Below are positions 12,976 to 22,288 of a DNA stretch of 32,579 nucleotides, in pieces. The DNA lies in contig CALDNT010000055.1 of NCBI GenBank assembly GCA_937915145.1, forward strand, positions 1-32,579. The letters run 5' to 3'. The notes beneath the pieces were generated by a model, which was not told the DNA's origin, did not search any database, and worked only from the letters and a program-made list of their open reading frames with translations. Made by a program: the position numbers and the translations under genes. The stretch's first letter is position 1. The number at the start of each line of letters is the position of its first letter. This stretch comes from an uncultured Reyranella sp. GTDB lineage: Bacteria; Pseudomonadota; Alphaproteobacteria; Reyranellales; Reyranellaceae.

Positions 12976-14532
12976 ATGAAGCACGTCCCCGTCCTGATCG
13001 CCGGCGGCGGACCGGTGGGCATGACGGTGGCGCGCACGCTTGCCTCGTTTGGCGTGCGCTGCCTGCTGGTCGAACGCAATCCCGCGACCACGCGACATCC
13101 GAAGATGGACATCACCAACGGCCGCTCGATGGAATTGTTTCGTCGACTGGGTGTGGCGGACAAGCTGCGTACTGTGGCCGTGCCGGAAGAGAACAACTTC
13201 GACATCTCCTGGATCACCTCGCTGGCCCGGGAGGCGGGGGGCCGCGAGCTGCATCGCTTCCGTTATCCCAGCGTCGCCGAGAAGCGTCTGGAAATCCGGC
13301 GCCGCAACGACGGTACCCAGCCGCGCGAGCCCGCCATGCGGGTGAGCCAGGTGATGATCGAGCCGGTGCTGCGCGACGCCATCGTCGATCATCCGCTGGT
13401 CGATGCGCGATGGGGCGTCGCGTTCGAGGATTTCGAGCAGGACGAGGCCGGCGTCACCGTCACTTTGCGAACCGTCGAGACCGGCGCCATCGAGACGGTG
13501 CGCTGCGATTATCTGGCCGGTTGCGACGGCGGGACGAGCGTCGTGCGCGACCGTCTCGGCGTCGCGCTCGAGGGCCGTGCTGCCGTCGCCCACCGCTTCA
13601 TGGTCCATTTCCGCTCCGACGCGCGCGACCTGCTGCAGGCTTTCGGCATTGCCTGGCACTACCAGAAGGCCACAGGCACCATCATCGCTCAGGACGACAA
13701 GGAAACCTGGACCCTGCAGACCAGGCTGCCGCCGGGCGCCGATCCCGCGTCGGTCGATCCGCACCGGCTGCTGGATGATTTCGCCGGCAAAAGCTTTCCG
13801 CGCGAAATCGTGGTCGCCAACCCGTGGTTTACGCACCTTCTGCTGGCCGAACGCTACCAGGGCGGCCGTGTCTTCCTCGCGGGCGACGCCGCGCACCAGT
13901 ACATCCCGACCGGCGGCTACGGCATGAACACGGGTATCGGCGATGCCGTCGATCTCGGCTGGAAACTCGCCGCCGCCATAAAAGGCTTTGCGACACCGGG
14001 CTTGCTCCAGTCCTACGAACGCGAGCGGCGGCCCGTGGGCTATCGCAACCGCATCGCCTCCGAACGCCACACCGGCGTGCGCCTGAAGGTTGCCGAACTC
14101 TACCAGAGCGAACGCGATCCCGAGGCGCTGGGCCGCGCTATTGCGGCGCTGGGCAATGCCGAGAACGAGAGCTGGGGCATCGAGTTCGGCTATCGCTACG
14201 ACGGCGTCGAGGGGGATCCCGTGGTCTACCAGCCCACCACGGCGCCAGGTGCGCGTCTGCCAAGCACCTTCCTGTCCGACGGCAGCGCGCTCTACGACCG
14301 GCTGGGTCCGTGGTTCACCCTGCTTCATTTCGGTGGCGCCGACCCCAGCGCCGTGATCGATGCTGCGCCGGCGCCGCTTGACGTCGTCTATCTCGACGAG
14401 CCGGCATTGGCCGCGATCTACGAGACGAAGCTGCTGCTGGTGCGGCCCGACACACACGTCGCATGGCGCGGCAATAGCTGCGCCGACGGCGCGGCGGTGT
14501 GGCGTGGCGTGCTCGACGGGAGACTGGCATGA
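12976..14532 (+). CDS. FAD-dependent monooxygenase (PheA/TfdB-type aromatic hydroxylase family)
   Basis: A 518-residue class A flavoprotein hydroxylase, using NAD(P)H and O2 to hydroxylate an aromatic or polyketide-like substrate. Residues 10-15 give the GGGPVG dinucleotide fold, the DG motif appears as GCDGGTSVVR (about 189-198), and GDAAH at 303-307 binds the FAD ribityl chain, followed by GGYGMNTGIGDA. The C-terminal ~130 residues fit the thioredoxin-like domain of the PheA/TfdB group. The ATG is one base after the LLM gene stop, and its TGA overlaps the next start (ATGA), so the three enzymes are almost certainly co-expressed. Substrate is unknown. Confidence 0.93.
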   Translation: MKHVPVLIAGGGPVGMTVARTLASFGVRCLLVERNPATTRHPKMDITNGRSMELFRRLGVADKLRTVAVPEENNFDISWITSLAREAGGRELHRFRYPSVAEKRLEIRRRNDGTQPREPAMRVSQVMIEPVLRDAIVDHPLVDARWGVAFEDFEQDEAGVTVTLRTVETGAIETVRCDYLAGCDGGTSVVRDRLGVALEGRAAVAHRFMVHFRSDARDLLQAFGIAWHYQKATGTIIAQDDKETWTLQTRLPPGADPASVDPHRLLDDFAGKSFPREIVVANPWFTHLLLAERYQGGRVFLAGDAAHQYIPTGGYGMNTGIGDAVDLGWKLAAAIKGFATPGLLQSYERERRPVGYRNRIASERHTGVRLKVAELYQSERDPEALGRAIAALGNAENESWGIEFGYRYDGVEGDPVVYQPTTAPGARLPSTFLSDGSALYDRLGPWFTLLHFGGADPSAVIDAAPAPLDVVYLDEPALAAIYETKLLLVRPDTHVAWRGNSCADGAAVWRGVLDGRLA

Positions 14533-15725
14533 AGATCGCCATCATTGGCGGCGGTATCGGCGGCCTTTCGGCCGCGCTGGCGTTGCTCGAAGCAGGCCTC
14601 GACGTCGAGGTCTACGAGCAGGCCCGGAGGTTCGGCGAGATCGGTGCCGGCATCCAGATCAGTCCCAACGCCTCGCGCCTGCTGCATCGTCTTGGTCTGA
14701 AGCCTGCAATGGACAAATGCGGCGTCCGCCCGCTTGCGGTCCACCAGAAGCGTTGGGACGATGGCCGCACGCTGCAGCGCGCACCGCTCGGCCCCGAGGT
14801 CGAGGCGCGGTTCGATGCTCCGTACTACCATTTCCACCGCGGCGATCTTGCCGCCCTGCTGGCCGACGCATTGCCGACGGAGCGGGCTCACGCCGACCAT
14901 CGCCTGGTCGGCGTGGAGGAGAAGGGCGAGCGCGTGATCGGGCGCTTCGACAATGGCCTTTCGATCGAGGCCGATCTGTTGATCGGCGCCGACGGCATCC
15001 ATTCCAGGGTGCGTGCGCTCACCTTCGGGCTCGAAAAGCCGCGCTTTACCGGCTGCGTGGCCTGGCGCGGCCTGGTGCCGGCCGAGCGCATCGCCCATCT
15101 CGACCTTGAGGTCGCGTCGCACAACTGGATGGGGCCGGGCGCCCACTGCGTTCACTACTGGGTTTCGGCCCGGCGTCTGATGAATGTGGTGTGCGTCGTG
15201 GAACACGGAACCTGGACGAACGAATCATGGACCGACAAGGGCGACGTCGCCGACGTCCTGGCGCGCTATGAGGGCTGGCATCCCACCGTGCGCGGCCTGA
15301 TCGCGGCGTTCCCCGAAACCTTCGTCTGGGCGCTGCACGATCGCGCGCCTTTGTCGGCATGGACCAAGGGCCGCGTCGCGCTGCTGGGCGATGCCTGCCA
15401 TCCCATGCTGCCGATGATGGCGCAGGGGGCCGCCCAGGCGATCGAGGACGGCGCTGCCGTGGCCTCGCTCCTGAAGGCGATGCCGGACGACGTGCCCGGG
15501 GCGCTGCGGTGCTACGAGGAGGTCCGCAAGCCGCGGGCGACGCGGCTGCAGGAAGCGAGTGCGGCCAACCGCATCCGATTCCATTTGCCCGACGGGCCCG
15601 AGCAGCAGGCACGTGACGCTGCGATGGCCAACGGAGGCGACCGCTCGCTCGATGCCATGGACTGGCTCTACGGGCACGACGCGGCCGGGCTCTCGCCACG
15701 TGGCGCCGGTGTGACGACGATATGA
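14529..15725 (+). CDS. FAD-dependent monooxygenase (salicylate / 3-hydroxybenzoate hydroxylase type)
   Basis: A 398-residue single-component flavin monooxygenase. The dinucleotide fold GGGIGG is at 7-12, the DG motif is IGADGIHSRVR (about 152-162), and GDACHPMLP lies at 287-295, the signature shared by salicylate 1-hydroxylase and 3-hydroxybenzoate 6-hydroxylase. It is expected to hydroxylate, and possibly decarboxylate, an aromatic acid with NAD(P)H and O2. The ATG overlaps the preceding stop by four bases. It ends the four-gene set; 46 bases later the ABC membrane-domain gene begins with its own strong ribosome site. Having two different flavin hydroxylases side by side suggests consecutive hydroxylations of one substrate. 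Confidence 0.93.
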   Translation: MKIAIIGGGIGGLSAALALLEAGLDVEVYEQARRFGEIGAGIQISPNASRLLHRLGLKPAMDKCGVRPLAVHQKRWDDGRTLQRAPLGPEVEARFDAPYYHFHRGDLAALLADALPTERAHADHRLVGVEEKGERVIGRFDNGLSIEADLLIGADGIHSRVRALTFGLEKPRFTGCVAWRGLVPAERIAHLDLEVASHNWMGPGAHCVHYWVSARRLMNVVCVVEHGTWTNESWTDKGDVADVLARYEGWHPTVRGLIAAFPETFVWALHDRAPLSAWTKGRVALLGDACHPMLPMMAQGAAQAIEDGAAVASLLKAMPDDVPGALRCYEEVRKPRATRLQEASAANRIRFHLPDGPEQQARDAAMANGGDRSLDAMDWLYGHDAAGLSPRGAGVTTI

Positions 15726-15771
15726 TCGATGTAGTCTGGCGCGTGCTGCAGCCAAGAGGAGGTTGACCACC

Positions 15772-16740
15772 GTGGCTTCACTGCTATCGCGGCTTTACAG
15801 GTCGGTGCTGCCCTCGGTGAGCGACTGGTCCGGCGGGCCCATGTCGACATCGCTTTATGGTTACGTCCTCAAGGTGAGCCGCAAGCAGCAGGTCCGCCTC
15901 GGCCTGCTGACGATGGTGCTCTTTCCCCTGGCGTCGGTGCCGCTCGAGCTCCAGCGGCAGATCGTCAATCACGCCGTGGTCGGCTCCGGCGTCGAACTGC
16001 TGTTGGCCTACGGCGGATTGTATCTCGCCGTCCTGCTGCTGCAGGGCGGCTTGAAGTTCGTGCGCGACATTTACATGTACAGGATCGCCGAGGGAGTCAC
16101 GCGTTTGCTGCGCAAGAAGTTCGTCCATCACGCGCCGCACGAAACCGGCATCGATGAAGGCACGACGCAGGCCATCATCTCGTCCGAGTCGGAGAAGGTC
16201 GGTGGTTTCGTCGCGGAAAGCATTTCTTTGCCGTTGCTGCAGACAGGCACCGTGCTCAGCATCGCGGCGTACATGCTGGTCATAGAACCCCTGATCGCGG
16301 TGGTCGCGATCGCCTTCCTCGTGCCGTCGGTGGTCATCGTCGGCCTGGCTCAGCCCATCCTCAACGGACTGTCCCGATCGAAGATTACGCTCGTGCGCTC
16401 GCTGGGCGAGTCGGTTCTCCGCGATGGTCGCGACGAAGCTGCCCAAGCTGCCGAACCCGATGCTCTCGTCGACCGCATCTATGGTCTGCGCCTTCGCTTC
16501 GCCAATCTCAAGAATGCAACCAAGGTGCTCAACCAGTTGATCACCGGTCTGGGTCTCCTGAGTATTCTGCTGGTCGGCGGATGGCTCGCCATTGAAGGTC
16601 GGACGGAGATCGGCATCATCGTGGCCTTCATGTCGGGGTATGAGCGCATGACCAACCCCGTCCGCGACCTGTTGAATTTCTATCGTCGTCTTTCGATGAT
16701 GCGCGTGCAGTACCGGCTGGTGGCTGACGCCTCCGGCTAG
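15772..16740 (+). CDS. ABC-exporter transmembrane domain without ATPase (possibly truncated)
   Basis: A 322-residue membrane protein matching only the transmembrane domain of ABC exporters. Membrane helices are visible at about 42-60, 75-93, 152-171, 175-193 and 263-285, joined by long cytoplasmic helices (FVRDIYMYRIAEGVTRLLRKKF) typical of these exporters. The chain stops at the point where the linker to the nucleotide-binding domain would start; no Walker A, signature or Walker B motif follows. Its TAG stop lies inside the left inverted repeat of the palindromic element that follows, so truncation by insertion is possible. The GTG at 15772 is chosen, nine bases after AGGAGG (15757-15762); an adjacent TTG at 15763 is too close and ATG at 15841 lacks a site. 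Confidence 0.8.
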   Translation: MASLLSRLYRSVLPSVSDWSGGPMSTSLYGYVLKVSRKQQVRLGLLTMVLFPLASVPLELQRQIVNHAVVGSGVELLLAYGGLYLAVLLLQGGLKFVRDIYMYRIAEGVTRLLRKKFVHHAPHETGIDEGTTQAIISSESEKVGGFVAESISLPLLQTGTVLSIAAYMLVIEPLIAVVAIAFLVPSVVIVGLAQPILNGLSRSKITLVRSLGESVLRDGRDEAAQAAEPDALVDRIYGLRLRFANLKNATKVLNQLITGLGLLSILLVGGWLAIEGRTEIGIIVAFMSGYERMTNPVRDLLNFYRRLSMMRVQYRLVADASG

Positions 16741-16931
16741 AGTCTTTCCGACAAGGATCGAATCGCTCAGGCCGGATGACGAACAGACCTCATGCTGAGG
16801 AGCGAGCGAAGCGAGCGTCTCGAAGCATCGGCAACAGTATGATTGTTCCGACCCTTCTCCCACCCTTCGAGACGGGCGCTGCGCGCCCTCCTCAGGGTGA
16901 GGTGAGTTTGTGTCGTTCGGAAAGACCCTAG
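16737..16931. repeat. MITE-like nested palindromic element
   Basis: A 195-bp stretch with ends that are inverted repeats: 16737-16751 and the complement of 16917-16931 match at 14 of 15 positions (core GTCTTTCCGA). Inside, a second imperfect inverted repeat of 38 bases pairs 16788-16825 with 16865-16902, rich in GAGGAG and GCGAGCG. Both tips read CTAG, compatible with a 4-bp target duplication of the kind made by IS5-related transposases (inference). No coding capacity is present. Similar CTGAGGAG/GTCTCGAAG repeats are widespread in rhizobial-type genomes, from memory. It separates the convergent ABC and MscS genes and could also act as a bidirectional terminator. Confidence 0.75.
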
Positions 16932-16971
16932 AGATCGCGTCGCGTGGTCGCCCACCGCGGCAATCCTGCGG

Positions 16972-18240
16972 TCACTCGCTCTTGTGCAGGAACACTTCGC
17001 GATGCGGATAGGGAATGCCGATCCCGTTCTGTTTCAGCGTGTCCCATACGGCAAGCATGGCCAGGCCCTTGACGTTCGTCACGCCTTGTTCGGGATCGTC
17101 GATCCAGAAGCGCAGCGAGAAGTTGAGAGACGATTCGCCGAATTCGATCAGGTGGCACACCGGACTGGGGTTCGCCATCACCCGCTCGATCTTGGCCACG
17201 GCCGCGGCGGTGAGGCGGCGGACCTCGTGCGGATCGCAACGGTAGGTGACGCCGAAGCGGATGTCCTGGCGAACGCGGCGGTCGGTATGCGACCAGTTGA
17301 CGACGCGCTCCGTGACGAATGTCTCGTTCGGGATCAGATACTCGGCGCCGTCGCGGGTGGCCACCGAGACGTAGCGCGCCTTCAGCGAATTGATCCAGCC
17401 GAAGGTCTCGCCGAGCTGGATGACGTCGCCCGGCTTGATCGAGCGGTCCATCAGGATAATGACGCCGCTCATCAGGTTGGAAGTGACTTTCTGGAGACTG
17501 AGCGCCAGACCGAGGCCGAAGGCGCCGGAGAAGACCGTAAGCACCGTCGGGTCGAAGCCGATGGCAGTGAGCGCGATGCCGACCGCGGCGACGATCATCG
17601 CCGCCTTGAAGAACTTGACCGCTAGCACCTGGGCGCTCGGCCTCAGAAGATCGTTCGACCGCAGTCGGGCCTCGAGGGCGGCCGCGGCTATCGACGTCGC
17701 CCATAGTACGGTGCCGAGGGCAGCGAGACCCTGCAACAGCGTCAGCAGCGAAAGCCTTCGGTCGCCGATACTCACGCCGACCCAGTCGAGGAGATCTCTC
17801 GCATCGTCCAGCCAGCCGACGATTGCCAGCGCGACGCCCACCCACAGCACCACTTCGACGACGCGGCTCAGGGAACGGTTGCGGATGGCGCGCGACAGGA
17901 TGCTGACCACCGCCCAGGCCGCCGCAAGTTCGGCGGCGATCACCAGGAAATAGCTGTGACTGGGCCACGTCACCTCGCGCATTATGCCGACGGCGATCCA
18001 CAGGGCCGTCGCCAGGAAGATCAGGCGCATGCGCCGCGACACGACGACCAGAAGCCGGAGAAGTTTCGGCTGGCCGGTGATCCGGCGCAGACGTTCCTCG
18101 ACCCTGGGCGAGAGCCAATGTGAGGCGACGAACGCCAGCGCCAGGCACAGTGCCAGGATCGCGGCCTGATAGAGAGTCCACTGGTCCGCCATGTTGACCA
18201 GGGTTTCCCGGAACGCGTGGATCCAGCTATCGACGTCCAT
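16972..18240 (-). CDS. MscS-family mechanosensitive channel
   Basis: A 422-residue small-conductance mechanosensitive channel homologue that opens under membrane tension to release solutes during osmotic downshock. Several N-terminal membrane helices (about 20-40, 70-90, 95-120, 127-145, 165-190, 208-228) precede the pore-lining helix FGLGLALSLQKVTSNLMSG (241-259). The beta domain follows with the family sequence GDVIQLGETFGWI (271-283), RDGAEYLIPN (296-305), and then the alpha/beta C-terminal domain. It has more N-terminal helices than E. coli MscS (286 aa), like other medium-length members. It is 72 bp downstream of the MDR gene on the same strand and ends next to the palindromic repeat. 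Confidence 0.95.
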   Translation of the reverse strand: MDVDSWIHAFRETLVNMADQWTLYQAAILALCLALAFVASHWLSPRVEERLRRITGQPKLLRLLVVVSRRMRLIFLATALWIAVGIMREVTWPSHSYFLVIAAELAAAWAVVSILSRAIRNRSLSRVVEVVLWVGVALAIVGWLDDARDLLDWVGVSIGDRRLSLLTLLQGLAALGTVLWATSIAAAALEARLRSNDLLRPSAQVLAVKFFKAAMIVAAVGIALTAIGFDPTVLTVFSGAFGLGLALSLQKVTSNLMSGVIILMDRSIKPGDVIQLGETFGWINSLKARYVSVATRDGAEYLIPNETFVTERVVNWSHTDRRVRQDIRFGVTYRCDPHEVRRLTAAAVAKIERVMANPSPVCHLIEFGESSLNFSLRFWIDDPEQGVTNVKGLAMLAVWDTLKQNGIGIPYPHREVFLHKSE

Positions 18241-18312
18241 GGCGGCTTGTTCTCTCGATGCGGGCCGAAGACAAGGAGCCTACGCCGCTTACGGCTGTCT
18301 GCCGCCTACTTT

Positions 18313-19458
18313 CTAACCGGCCTTGTTGGGATTGATCAGGAACTTCTCGCCTGTGGCGCGCTTGGCGTAGGCGGCGATGTTCTTGAGGTCCAGCACCTCG
18401 GGCAGCGACACCACCTTGGTGTAGTGGCTGGCAAACGTCGTCTTCAGCGAATTGACCACCCGCTCGCGCAGGCGCTGCTGGTCGGGGCGTCCGATCTTCT
18501 GCAGGAACGGCGTGAGCAGCCAGCCGCCGACGCCCCACGCCATGCCGTAGTTGCGGTTCAGCTCGACCGCGCCGGTGTTGAGGCTGCCGTAGATGTAGAC
18601 CTGCTTGTGCGTGGTCGAGCCATAGCGGCTGTATTCCTTGGCGGTCTTGTTGAGCGCGATTTCCATGCTGGTCAGGATCTGGCTGGCGAGCTTGCCGCCG
18701 CCGATGGCGTCGAAGGCGATGGTGGCGCCGGTCTCGACCAGCGCCTGCGTCAGGTCATCGGTGAAGCTCGCGGCGCTCGAATCGACAACATGCTTGGCGC
18801 CGATGCCCTTGAGCAATTTCGCCTGCTCCGGGCTGCGCACGATGTTCACCAGGCCGATGCCGTCCTCGTTGCAGATCCTGTTCAGCATCTGGCCGAGATT
18901 GGAAGCGGCCGCGGTATGGACCAGCGCCTTATGGCCCTCGCGCTTCATCGTTTCGGTCATGCCGAGTGCCGTCAGCGGGTTGACGAACCACGAGGCGCCT
19001 TCGGCCGCGGTCGTGCCGGCCGGGAGCGGCTGGCAGTCCCTGGCGTTCAGCAGACGATACTGCGCGTACATCGAGCCGCCGACCATCGACACCGTCTTGC
19101 CCATCAGCGCCTGCGCGGCTTCCGAGGAGCCGGCCTTCACCACCGTGCCGGCGCCCTCGTTGCCGACCGGCATCGATTCGCCCAATCGCGCCGAAAGGAA
19201 GGGCAGGGCAGTGGCTGGCACCTTGGCCGCGACCTTGATGCCATCGCCGCTGCCGCTCGCCTTGAAACTCGCCATGTCGGCCGGTCCCAGCAGCAGGCCG
19301 AGGTCGGACGGATTGATCGGCGTCGCCTCGACCCTGACCACGACCTGGTCCGGGCCGGGCTCGGCAATGTCCACCTTGGCCAGCGACAGTTCGAGGTCGC
19401 CACTCTTGCTGATCAGAGAGCGAAGCTGCAGTCCCGAAATCTTTTTGGCGTCGCTCAT
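18313..19458 (-). CDS. Zinc-independent MDR-superfamily reductase (quinone oxidoreductase-like)
   Basis: A 381-residue medium-chain dehydrogenase/reductase. The N-terminal GroES-like domain includes the VEATPINPSDLGLLLG segment (43-58), GNEGAG at 99-104, and a Rossmann domain with AAASNLGQ at 183-190 and ATIAFDAIGGGKLASQ. The zinc-ligand Cys/His pattern of alcohol dehydrogenases is not seen, so it is of the quinone reductase/enoyl reductase kind using NADPH. The usual dinucleotide motif GAAGGVG is replaced by AAASNLG, still compatible with NADPH binding. An ATG at 19458 begins a clear domain. It is divergent from the patatin gene with 133 bp between. Substrate unknown. Confidence 0.9.
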   Translation of the reverse strand: MSDAKKISGLQLRSLISKSGDLELSLAKVDIAEPGPDQVVVRVEATPINPSDLGLLLGPADMASFKASGSGDGIKVAAKVPATALPFLSARLGESMPVGNEGAGTVVKAGSSEAAQALMGKTVSMVGGSMYAQYRLLNARDCQPLPAGTTAAEGASWFVNPLTALGMTETMKREGHKALVHTAAASNLGQMLNRICNEDGIGLVNIVRSPEQAKLLKGIGAKHVVDSSAASFTDDLTQALVETGATIAFDAIGGGKLASQILTSMEIALNKTAKEYSRYGSTTHKQVYIYGSLNTGAVELNRNYGMAWGVGGWLLTPFLQKIGRPDQQRLRERVVNSLKTTFASHYTKVVSLPEVLDLKNIAAYAKRATGEKFLINPNKAG

Positions 19459-19591
19459 GCTCGCGCTCCCGCTGTTGGTAGGCAGAGCCGCTTATGCCAA
19501 GCACCACCGCGACGAACAAGCGCGTTTGACCCGGATCCGGTCGACGACGGATTCGTATCCATCGGCGCCGGGTCTTTGTATGATCCCGGCC

Positions 19592-20515
19592 ATGGCACAT
19601 CCCAGAATCGGCCTCGCGCTCGGCAGCGGCTCGGCGCGCGGCCTGTCGCACATCGGCGTCATCGATGCCTTGATGGAGGCCGGCATCGAGCCTGACGTCG
19701 TCTGCGGCACATCGATCGGCGCGCTGGTCGGTGCGGCTTACGTTGCCGGGCGGCTGGCGGAGTTGCGGCAATGGGCGGAGACGGCGACCTGGCGCCAGGT
19801 CGTCCGCCTGATGGATGTCCGACTGTCGGGAGGCGGGTTGATCGACGGCAAACAGGTCGTCGCTCTTCTGCGGCGTCTCGGCATCGAAGCGCCGATCGAG
19901 AGCTACGCCAAACGGTACGCGGCCGTCGCGACCGACCTCGCGAGCGGCCGCGAGGTCTGGCTGCAGACCGGGCCGATTCATGAGGCGGTACGCGCCTCGA
20001 TCGCGGTGCCGGGGATCGTCAGCCCTGCGCAGGTCGACGGCAAATGGCTGGTGGATGGCGGCCTTTCCAATCCGGTTCCGGTCTCGGTCTGCCGTGCCCT
20101 CGGCGCGGAAGTGATCATCGCCGTAAACCTCAACGGCGATCTGGTGGGGCGGCGCGTCGACAAGACCCAGAGCCTGCCCGCAGTGAGCGCTCCGTCGCGC
20201 GTTTCGAGCGAACTCTTCAGGCGGATTCTGAGCCAACTGCCGGGTGCGCGGCCCGAACAGGTGGCGCAGATCGCGCCCGACCCGCTGCCTCGCGGGGCGG
20301 CGGCGCCGGGCTATCTCGACGTCCTCGCCAACTCCCTCAATATCATGCAGGACCACATCACCCGCACCCGTCTTGCCGGCGAGCCGCCCCATGTGCTGCT
20401 TGTCCCGCGGCTGGGCAACATTGGCCTGATGGAGTTCACCCGGGCGCGCGAGGCGATCGCCGAAGGCCGCCACAGTGTTCAACACGCCCTGCCACTGCTG
20501 CGGCGCTACCTGTGA
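19592..20515 (+). CDS. Patatin-like phospholipase family protein (RssA-like)
   Basis: A 307-residue cytoplasmic or membrane-associated serine acyl hydrolase of the patatin family. The glycine-rich oxyanion loop GSGSARGL is at 11-18, the nucleophile motif GTSIG at 39-43 (Ser41), and the dyad Asp155 in VDGG; these are the three signatures of the family. An additional in-frame ATG at 19580 would add four residues (MIPA); neither start has a convincing ribosome site. The TATGAT at 19579-19584 overlaps the upstream ATG and no good -35 is present, so the promoter is not assigned. It runs away from the MDR gene; the TPR gene lies 123 bp downstream with its own ribosome site. Confidence 0.92.
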   Translation: MAHPRIGLALGSGSARGLSHIGVIDALMEAGIEPDVVCGTSIGALVGAAYVAGRLAELRQWAETATWRQVVRLMDVRLSGGGLIDGKQVVALLRRLGIEAPIESYAKRYAAVATDLASGREVWLQTGPIHEAVRASIAVPGIVSPAQVDGKWLVDGGLSNPVPVSVCRALGAEVIIAVNLNGDLVGRRVDKTQSLPAVSAPSRVSSELFRRILSQLPGARPEQVAQIAPDPLPRGAAAPGYLDVLANSLNIMQDHITRTRLAGEPPHVLLVPRLGNIGLMEFTRAREAIAEGRHSVQHALPLLRRYL

Positions 20516-20638: not shown

Positions 20639-22288
20639 ATGGCTTACTACGATCTCGGCGCCTACATCCGCGCCATCACGACCAAGTCTCCCGATACGCA
20701 GCTCTGGTTCGACCGCGGCCTCAACTGGCTGTTCGGGTTCAATCACGCGGAAGCCATCAAATGCTTCGGCAAGGCGCTGGAGACCGATCCCGGCTGCGCC
20801 ATGGCCCATTGGGGCATCGCCTATGCGGCGGGCCCCAACTACAACCTGCCCTGGCACCTCTACGACCCGGCCGGCAAGGCGCAGGCGCTGGCTGCCGCCT
20901 ATGACGCCATGCAAAACGCACTCAAGCACGCGAGCGGTGCCATGCCGGTCGAGCAGGCGCTGATCAACGCCCTGCCGGCGCGCTATCCGCAGCGCGATCC
21001 GATCGAGGACCAAACGGCCTGGGACCACGCCTTCACCGGCGAAATGCGCAAGGTCTTCGCCGAGTACAGCGACGATCTAGAAGTCCGCTGCGTCTTTGTC
21101 GACGCCATCATGGTCGAGACGCCTTGGAAGATGTGGGACCTCACGACCGGCGGCGTTGCCAAAGATGCCGGCACCGCCGAGGCGGTCGAACTGCTCGAGA
21201 ACGCCTTTCGCGACATGCCGGACGCCTGGACCCACCCGGGCCTGCTGCATCTCTATGTCCACCTGATGGAGATGTCGCCCTTCCCGCAGCGCGCGCTGCG
21301 CGCCGGCGACCAGCTGCGCGACCTGGTGCCCGATGCCGGCCACCTGATCCACATGCCGACCCACATCGACGTGCTGTGCGGCAACTACCGCGATGTCGTC
21401 GTCTACAATCAGAAGGCGGTTGCAGCCGACCGCAAGTTCCTGGCGCGCGAAGGGGCGATGAACGTCTATGCGCTCTACCGCACCCACAACCATCATTTCG
21501 TGATCTACGGCGCCATGTTCCTCGGCCAGTACACGCCGGCGCTCGAAGCGGCGCAGGAGATCATCGACACCACGCCCGAGGAACTGCTGCGCATTCCCTC
21601 GCCGCCCATGGCCGATTTCATCGAAGGCTACATCCCGATGAAGCAGCACGTGCTGGTGCGGTTCGGCAAGTGGCAGGAGATCATCGACCAGGAACTGCCC
21701 AAGGACCGCGCGCTCTACTGCTCGACGACGGCGATGATGCTTTACGCCAAGGGCGTCGCCCATTCGACCCTGGGCAACATCGCCGAAGCCGAGAAGGCGC
21801 GCGAGGCTTTTCGCGCGGCGGCGGCCAGGGTCCCCGATACGAGGCGTGTGCACAACAACACCATCGTCGACCTGCTTGCCATCGCCGAGCAGATGCTGAG
21901 CGGTGAGCTCGAATACCGTCGCGCCAATTACGACGTTGCGTTCCGCCACCTCAGGCGCGCGGTCGAGCTCGAGGATGCGCTGCCCTATGACGAGCCCTGG
22001 GGCTGGATGCAGCCCTCCCGCCATGCGCTGGGCGCGTTGCTGCTGGAGCAGGGCCACGCCGCGGAGGCCGAGGCCGTCTACCGCGCCGACCTCGGCTTCG
22101 ACGGCAAGCTGAGCCGCGCCTGCCAGCACCTGGAAAATGTCTGGAGCCTGCACGGCCTGCATGAGTGCCTGACGCGCCGCGGCGACAAAGTCGAGGCGCC
22201 GCTGATCAAGGCGCGTCTCGACCTCGCATCGGCGCGCGCCGAGGTGGTGGTGCGCGCCTCGTGCTTCTGCCGGCGACAGGCGGCGTGA
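20639..22288 (+). CDS. Large TPR-repeat protein of unknown function
   Basis: A 549-residue soluble protein made of helical pairs of the tetratricopeptide type. The first clear repeat is HAEAIKCFGKALETDPGCAMAHWG (partly, about 36-58); further repeats appear near 330-350, 388-410 and 445-485 (RHLRRAVELEDALPYDEPWGW). Between them lie long conserved stretches such as HLIHMPTHIDVLCGNY (about 236-251) and HNHHFVIYGAMFLGQY. The chain ends with SCFCRRQAA, two cysteines bracketing a phenylalanine. TPR proteins of this size scaffold protein complexes; no partner or enzyme activity can be assigned. The AGGAGG site is seven bases before the ATG. An imperfect palindrome (GTTCATGTGAAC, 20590-20601) lies upstream. 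Confidence 0.88.
   Translation: MAYYDLGAYIRAITTKSPDTQLWFDRGLNWLFGFNHAEAIKCFGKALETDPGCAMAHWGIAYAAGPNYNLPWHLYDPAGKAQALAAAYDAMQNALKHASGAMPVEQALINALPARYPQRDPIEDQTAWDHAFTGEMRKVFAEYSDDLEVRCVFVDAIMVETPWKMWDLTTGGVAKDAGTAEAVELLENAFRDMPDAWTHPGLLHLYVHLMEMSPFPQRALRAGDQLRDLVPDAGHLIHMPTHIDVLCGNYRDVVVYNQKAVAADRKFLAREGAMNVYALYRTHNHHFVIYGAMFLGQYTPALEAAQEIIDTTPEELLRIPSPPMADFIEGYIPMKQHVLVRFGKWQEIIDQELPKDRALYCSTTAMMLYAKGVAHSTLGNIAEAEKAREAFRAAAARVPDTRRVHNNTIVDLLAIAEQMLSGELEYRRANYDVAFRHLRRAVELEDALPYDEPWGWMQPSRHALGALLLEQGHAAEAEAVYRADLGFDGKLSRACQHLENVWSLHGLHECLTRRGDKVEAPLIKARLDLASARAEVVVRASCFCRRQAA

Follow-up and report, generated by a model that had tools for sequence, protein, structure and literature searches.

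An ATPase-free ABC-exporter transmembrane-domain protein of Reyranella is a whole member of a natural protein family

Results

A gene for an ABC transmembrane domain

The stretch of DNA analysed here (the window; 32,579 nucleotides from an uncultured Reyranella sp.) is the entire contig C55 of a 4.77-Mb genome in 317 contigs. Its forward strand carries, at 15772–16740, an open reading frame for a protein of 322 residues that starts with GTG and ends with a TAG stop at 16738–16740. A ribosome-binding-like AGGAGG (15757–15762, forward strand), read from the sequence with start candidates scored, lies 9 nt ahead of the GTG. The protein matches the Pfam model PF00664 (ABC_membrane) at 40.4 bits, with a cut-off of 28, and the Pfam search gave no match to ABC_tran or any ATPase model. 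In the AlphaFold model the final helix spans residues 280–321 and stops one residue short of the C-terminus, so the protein ends where the ATPase linker would begin. Open reading frame, PF00664 match and model thus bear out the original prediction that an ABC-exporter membrane domain stops here at the linker between the transmembrane domain (TMD) and the ATPase. Comparison of the gene with its counterpart on contig L053, described below, gave a dN of 0.0145, a dS of 0.197 and a ratio of 0.074, which indicates that the protein is under purifying selection. Given the reading frame, the PF00664 match, orthologues of similar length and this dN/dS of 0.074, we annotate 15772–16740 (forward strand) as a complete ATPase-free type IV ABC transmembrane-domain protein.

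Two FAD monooxygenase genes lie on the 5′ side of the gene. On its 3′ side a convergent gene for an MscS/MscK-type mechanosensitive channel (16972–18240, reverse strand) was recognised by domain search and by the same gene order in L053, and an inverted-repeat element separates the two gene ends. The nearest named relatives of the transmembrane-domain gene are in records labelled Reyranella, Enhydrobacter, Rhodospirillales at that level only, or unclassified alphaproteobacterial MAGs (L053–L061). Further along the window, a reverse-strand frame of 361 residues (21077–22162) has no Pfam or NCBIfam match at E 0.001 and may not be a gene.

A MITE-like element at the stop codon

The element, together with its CTAG target copies (16737–16740 and 16928–16931), occupies 16737–16931 without assigned strand and has the ends GAGTCTTTCCGA and TCGGAAAGACCC; its arms, an empty site, tip counts and fold define it. 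It is 195 bp long, with CTAG at both tips, and the TAG stop of the gene lies inside one of the two. The arms (16737–16751 and 16917–16931) are 15 nt long and complementary at 14 of 15 positions (93%), and an inner palindrome of 47 nt (16779–16911, likewise unstranded) is 79% complementary. These values were recomputed and reproduce the original description of a TAG at 16738–16740 in the CTAG tip of a 195-bp element with 14/15 inverted ends.

Folded as RNA, the element has a z of −6.6, and none of 200 shuffles folded equally well. Of 76 genomes of the order, 30 contain the 15-bp tip CTAGRGTCTTTCCGA and none contains a reversed control pattern. Eight further tip pairs, 182–264 bp in length, were aligned with the window copy, and four more of 104–207 bp were found in L136, L139, L141 and L163 when one mismatch per tip was permitted. 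Fold score, tip counts and further tip pairs together argue that the element is more than chance. An Rfam search within 15600–17100 gave no match at E 1.

The element resembles a MITE, with CTAG as its insertion target. It shares with MITEs its short length, its inverted tips, the duplicated CTAG and the presence of several copies in related genomes; it differs in that its copies, constant at the tips, have interiors of at least two unrelated palindromic kinds. In L166–L173 and L183 the interior palindromes look as if the constant tips had captured different repeats. A further candidate element in the window's own genome lies on C97; it is about 98 bp long and has two mismatches in its second tip. 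The same genome also gives 59 matches to the window copy, a number that includes the self-match and both-strand hits at one place; the majority of these matches are confined to about 16787–16903 (query positions 51–167) and lack the outer tips. No autonomous element with the same tips was seen in the stretches examined around tips. The CTAG target presumably resembles those of IS5- or IS630-like elements.

The insertion left the gene whole

A 6.4-kb contig of an uncultured Reyranella (L053) is syntenic with the window and encodes a protein 97% identical to that of the window. Its DNA aligns to the window on either side of the element (13795–16742 at 91.7% and 16928–20388 at 87.3%), and its junction is an empty site with one CTAG in place of the two in the window. 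When the window flanks are joined, they agree with this empty site at 87 of 99 positions. The L053 gene terminates with the same residues and stop as the window gene (ASG followed by TAG), and the channel gene follows directly, in the same order as in the window. We conclude that the stop codon was already part of the CTAG when the element inserted there; the stop lies inside the CTAG tip because the insertion target itself contains TAG. The duplicated target read from this comparison is TA or CTAG, both being compatible with it. Orthologues in two element-free genomes (G004 and G032; 78–79% identity) stop at the same alignment column as the window protein, and their DNA matches the window over the gene only, not over the element.

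The original prediction had proposed a comparison with orthologues at the same locus, and this comparison yielded same-length orthologues in L053, G004 and G032, all free of the element. Its first reading, in which the insertion had removed an ATPase half, is ruled out by the empty site in L053 and by the common stop column of G004 and G032. That the element severed an ATPase domain and left a truncated exporter would fit the stop within the element tip and the end of the protein at the linker position, but it has become a negligible possibility in the face of the L053 empty site with the same protein end, the equal-length orthologues without the element, the similar length of 77 of 80 relatives (the best 80 of 186 loci) and the channel gene that directly follows in L053. 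We are therefore nearly certain that the gene is intact and that the insertion is silent.

A natural family without an ATPase

A scan of species genomes returned 186 loci encoding relatives. Family counts over 80 refer to the best 80 of these 186 loci, with near-copies included and with starts chosen by script. Among the best 80 are Reyranella, Enhydrobacter, Rhizobium, Roseobacter, Inquilinus, Microvirga, Oceanibacterium, Aurantimonas, Jiella, Phyllobacterium and betaproteobacterial MAGs. The open frames of 77 of them encode 306–356 residues and end 0–35 residues past the match. The three exceptions are L064, which has one in-frame stop near the start, L121, which has 395 residues and a match ending at residue 307, and L107. 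At L107 (7926–9305) a frame of 459 residues runs into an apparent c-type cytochrome with a CSSCH motif and represents a fusion or a lost stop.

For alignment we took 71 of the 80, dropping nine near-copies or odd lengths, and added the window protein, giving 72 members. PF00664 is matched by 69 of the 72 at E 0.01 and is the only Pfam family that any member hits at this threshold; PF00005 (ABC_tran) is found in 0/72. The gene is thus complete and belongs to a naturally ATPase-free family of ABC-exporter transmembrane domains. The second reading of the original prediction, a natural ATPase-free exporter, is supported by the lengths of the 77 relatives and by PF00664 as the sole Pfam match in the 72.

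Nor was a consistently linked ATPase gene found. Within flanking sequence of at most 8 kb (shorter where a contig ends), ATPase motif sets occur at 17 of the 80 loci, at differing distances and of differing kinds as judged by eye. The first set of loci had such a motif set in only 3 of 21 neighbourhoods; the two locus sets overlap, L058 and L059 sharing their contigs with L030 and L029. With 3/21 and 17/80 loci and mixed kinds, a conserved ATPase neighbour was dropped as a rule.

Several individual loci deserve mention. The own genome has a second family member (L036:6718–7776; G000:C313, reverse strand) that departs from the conserved C-terminus after GKLNDPWG in a frameshift-like manner, and G067:C21:49559–50480 contains a member in two overlapping frames (158 and 201 residues), probably through a frameshift. 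A record named Mycobacterium sp. KBS0706 (L076) carries a family gene 36% identical to that of the window. In its tail and neighbours this gene resembles those of the Inquilinus records L070, L074 and L077, so the record may be misnamed. Frames of SbmA_BacA type (533 and 390 residues) lie within about 5 kb of the family members at G016:C1:2799744–2800652 and G022:C1:4638734–4639663.

A longer ATPase-bearing relative

The closest ATPase-bearing relatives found are alphaproteobacterial ABC proteins of about 905 residues, 16 of which were read; they score 145–217 bits against the family profile. Of three canonical exporters, two score 36 and 32 bits and the third falls below zero; YddA/SbmA-like proteins reach no more than 9 bits. 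The ~905-residue protein contains PF00664 and PF00005, with the ATPase domain matched in two stretches. It has in common with the family K95, E107, R114, E139, E141, R209 and K247; it differs in its ATPase domain, whose motifs are atypical where readable, and in docking loops that do not vary in length. In these relatives (L040:6630–9347 and L184–L198) a text pattern made Walker A readable in 5 of 16, as GxxSSGKD or GGSGSGKD, and in 9 of 16 a signature RL[PTS]A[TGA]Q in place of LSGGQ together with a Walker B ending in NE or SE.

E59 and R305 are among the residues that set the family apart. E59 is invariant (72/72), its position being acidic in 2 of the 16 ~905-residue proteins. R305 is likewise invariant (72/72), whereas 15 of the 16 ~905-residue proteins have Q at this position and one has N. 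In a phylogenetic tree the ~905-residue family forms one clade (96/100), and three canonical exporters fall as long branches inside the short family, so that three changes are required. This tree could still accommodate a single origin.

Degenerate cytoplasmic loops

In the family, both of the loops from which ABC exporters build their coupling helices have become degenerate or shorter. In the window protein the joint alignment and the model place the degenerate first cytoplasmic loop region at residues 115–139 (16114–16188, forward strand) and the shortened second one at residues 209–247 (16396–16512, forward strand). Counted inclusively from R114 to E139, loop 1 has 23–39 residues (median 30) in the 72 members and 31 in all 16 ~905-residue proteins; loop 2, from R209 to K247 inclusive, has 32–53 residues (median 38) in the 72 members and 48 in all 16. 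From the ~905-residue proteins to the family, the frequency of the top residue drops from 0.79 to 0.33 in loop 1 and from 0.74 to 0.30 in loop 2, part of this fall being sampling, because the 16 relatives are a narrower sample than the 72 members and their conservation is inflated. Over TM3–TM4, between the loops, the change is from 0.74 to 0.63, i.e. these helices are still conserved, a comparison that corrects for sampling breadth only in part.

The AlphaFold model, computed as a monomer from 72 sequences (pLDDT 86, pTM 0.80), has six long helices, and its TM2–TM3 and TM4–TM5 connections contain no helix, i.e. the coupling helices are absent from it. Its loop at residues 121–128 is of low confidence, with a mean of 54 for the loop 1 block. 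At the N-terminus only a helix of residues 2–12 stands ahead of TM1 (28–53).

No Foldseek match to this model reached E 0.001; the best was ABCB6 at E 0.0017, and a SbmA chain ranked 26th at E 0.018. In VIA-align, chains of SUR1, a regulatory ABC protein, lead the rows (Z 17.6, rmsd 4.6, 301 aligned) and are tied with the transporter ABCC1 (Z 17.5, rmsd 4.1, 282 aligned). Probably as a result of modelling a monomer, the VIA-align rows extend over both halves of full transporters.

Neighbourhoods and low-oxygen sites

Many members lie in low-oxygen or stress gene neighbourhoods, as judged by gene context and binding-site statistics. The neighbour census covered 94 loci (7 of 101 dropped as duplicates) within 7 kb, with one representative of each neighbour cluster named by Pfam. 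The commonest neighbour is a mixed single-linkage cluster of signalling proteins with a GGDEF representative, at 33 of the 94 loci. It is followed by Usp (27), ABC-2 permeases (25), Crp/FNR regulators (23), P-type cation ATPases (21), zinc alcohol dehydrogenases (19), CBS-BON proteins (19), beta-CASP hydrolases (16) and Hsp20 (12), and a cluster read by eye as cytochrome c is a neighbour at 7. Usp domains number 12–16 per genome in four genomes of 4.8–5.8 Mb. Two annotated Rhizobium plasmids have similar neighbours, namely universal stress proteins, AdhP, a P-type ATPase, a CBS protein and a PAS protein.

The anaerobox TTGAY-N4-RTCAA is the FixK/FnrN site (PMC7888657). In 95 loci totalling 1.41 Mb, after removal of 6 duplicates, it was counted 155 times, compared with 0–8 occurrences for each of 11 permuted half-sites in the same loci, and 47 of the 95 have at least one. 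Within −400 to +60 of the gene it is found at 15 of the 95 loci, compared with about 4.8 expected from its density in the same loci; in the corresponding control, the permuted half-site TGAT is found near the gene at 3 loci and the ten others at none. No anaerobox is present in the window or in nine other listed loci of its clade, several of these contigs being short, and anaerobox control of the window gene itself thus found no support in this DNA.

Discussion

What is new here is the family, not the insertion. On the plasmid records listed its members are annotated as ‘ABC transporter transmembrane domain-containing protein’ or as ‘ABC transporter ATP-binding protein’, and the latter name misleads; records of R. 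phaseoli and R. leguminosarum carry members. Judged by title and abstract, no publication among those listed was recognised as dealing with this ATPase-free ABC membrane-domain family, and the term ‘ABC transporter’ does not occur in the main text of PMC7888657 and PMC4999443.

The protein probably works without any ATPase, and we favour the reading that the family is a second lineage in which transporters of type IV ABC fold do without one. It would most likely act as a homodimer of this fold, similar to SbmA/BacA, that alternates access without ATP and may be driven by an ion gradient or by a substrate gradient. Transport by the family, its direction, its energy source and its substrate are all points that we infer.

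Three other explanations assign the protein a different role. As the main rival has it, it could be the ATPase-free half of a heterodimer with the ~905-residue ABC protein, encoded elsewhere, in which ATP would drive transport through one partner; we consider this unlikely. The ~905-residue family is the closest ATPase-bearing relative found (145–217 bits), and all 18 family-bearing genomes examined contain a long match to it (31–46% identity over at least 879 residues), which leaves room for a shared complex. However, the ~905-residue family also occurs in genomes in which no short member is listed (e.g. G009, G018, G035 and G082), so the co-occurrence says little. Both docking loops are degenerate, and the ATPase domain of the ~905-residue protein was matched, weakly, in 1 of 21 neighbourhoods (L029), about 5 kb off.

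It is more doubtful still that a separate, unlinked ATPase subunit powers the protein, as in split ABC exporters. Split TMD and ATPase genes are reported in the YddA family (PMC13316013), but here no conserved ATPase neighbour was found in the flanks of the 21 and 80 loci and the coupling loops are degenerate. Equally improbable to us is that the protein is no transporter at all and that the fold serves it as a membrane sensor or scaffold. The mixed signalling-protein cluster that adjoins 33 of 94 loci and the SUR1 chains at the top of the VIA-align rows (Z 17.6) would suit such a role; yet SUR1 is tied with transporters (ABCC1, Z 17.5), and a shared fold is silent on function.

If the second-lineage reading holds, a wider and more tentative proposal can be made, to which we give rather less weight than to the reading itself: a loss of the ATP motor independent of that in SbmA may have produced a secondary transporter that spread in Alphaproteobacteria and was often wired into the low-oxygen response. 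Were this true, economy in ATP would be of benefit under low oxygen. A second lineage, with its closest ATPase-bearing relative in the same genomes, would also allow a test of which residues let an ABC fold run without ATP, and the family-specific E59 and R305 are candidates.

In its membrane domain the window protein is homologous to well-known ABC exporters (TmrA, E 4e-10; Sav1866, 5e-10; TM288, 1e-8; MsbA, 2e-5). Unlike it, TmrAB, Sav1866, TM287/288 and MsbA all have ATPase domains; coupling helices are also present in these four systems.

The closer parallel is SbmA, the E. coli peptide importer, which has the type IV ABC fold with neither an ATPase nor coupling helices. SbmA-type transporters are reported to be proton-driven, and SbmA derives from a YddA-type ABC protein and forms a bridge between ATP-driven and gradient-driven transport (PMC13316013). 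With SbmA/BacA (SLiPT) the family shares the type IV ABC TMD fold and the lack of both ATPase and coupling helices, in the case of the family by model and alignment. Sequence relationships separate the two: PF05992 (SbmA_BacA) is matched by 0 of 72 members at E 0.01, and the closest relative is a different one, the family profile giving YddA/SbmA-like proteins at most 9 bits and the ~905-residue proteins 145–217. SbmA/BacA also have the helices TM0a and TM0b, whereas the window model has no TM0 helices. The family has conserved glutamates at E59, E107, E139 and E141, of which E59 is family-specific; they are at most candidates for equivalents of the SbmA glutamate ladder for proton coupling. 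The family thus matches SbmA/BacA-type transporters in kind, not in sequence.
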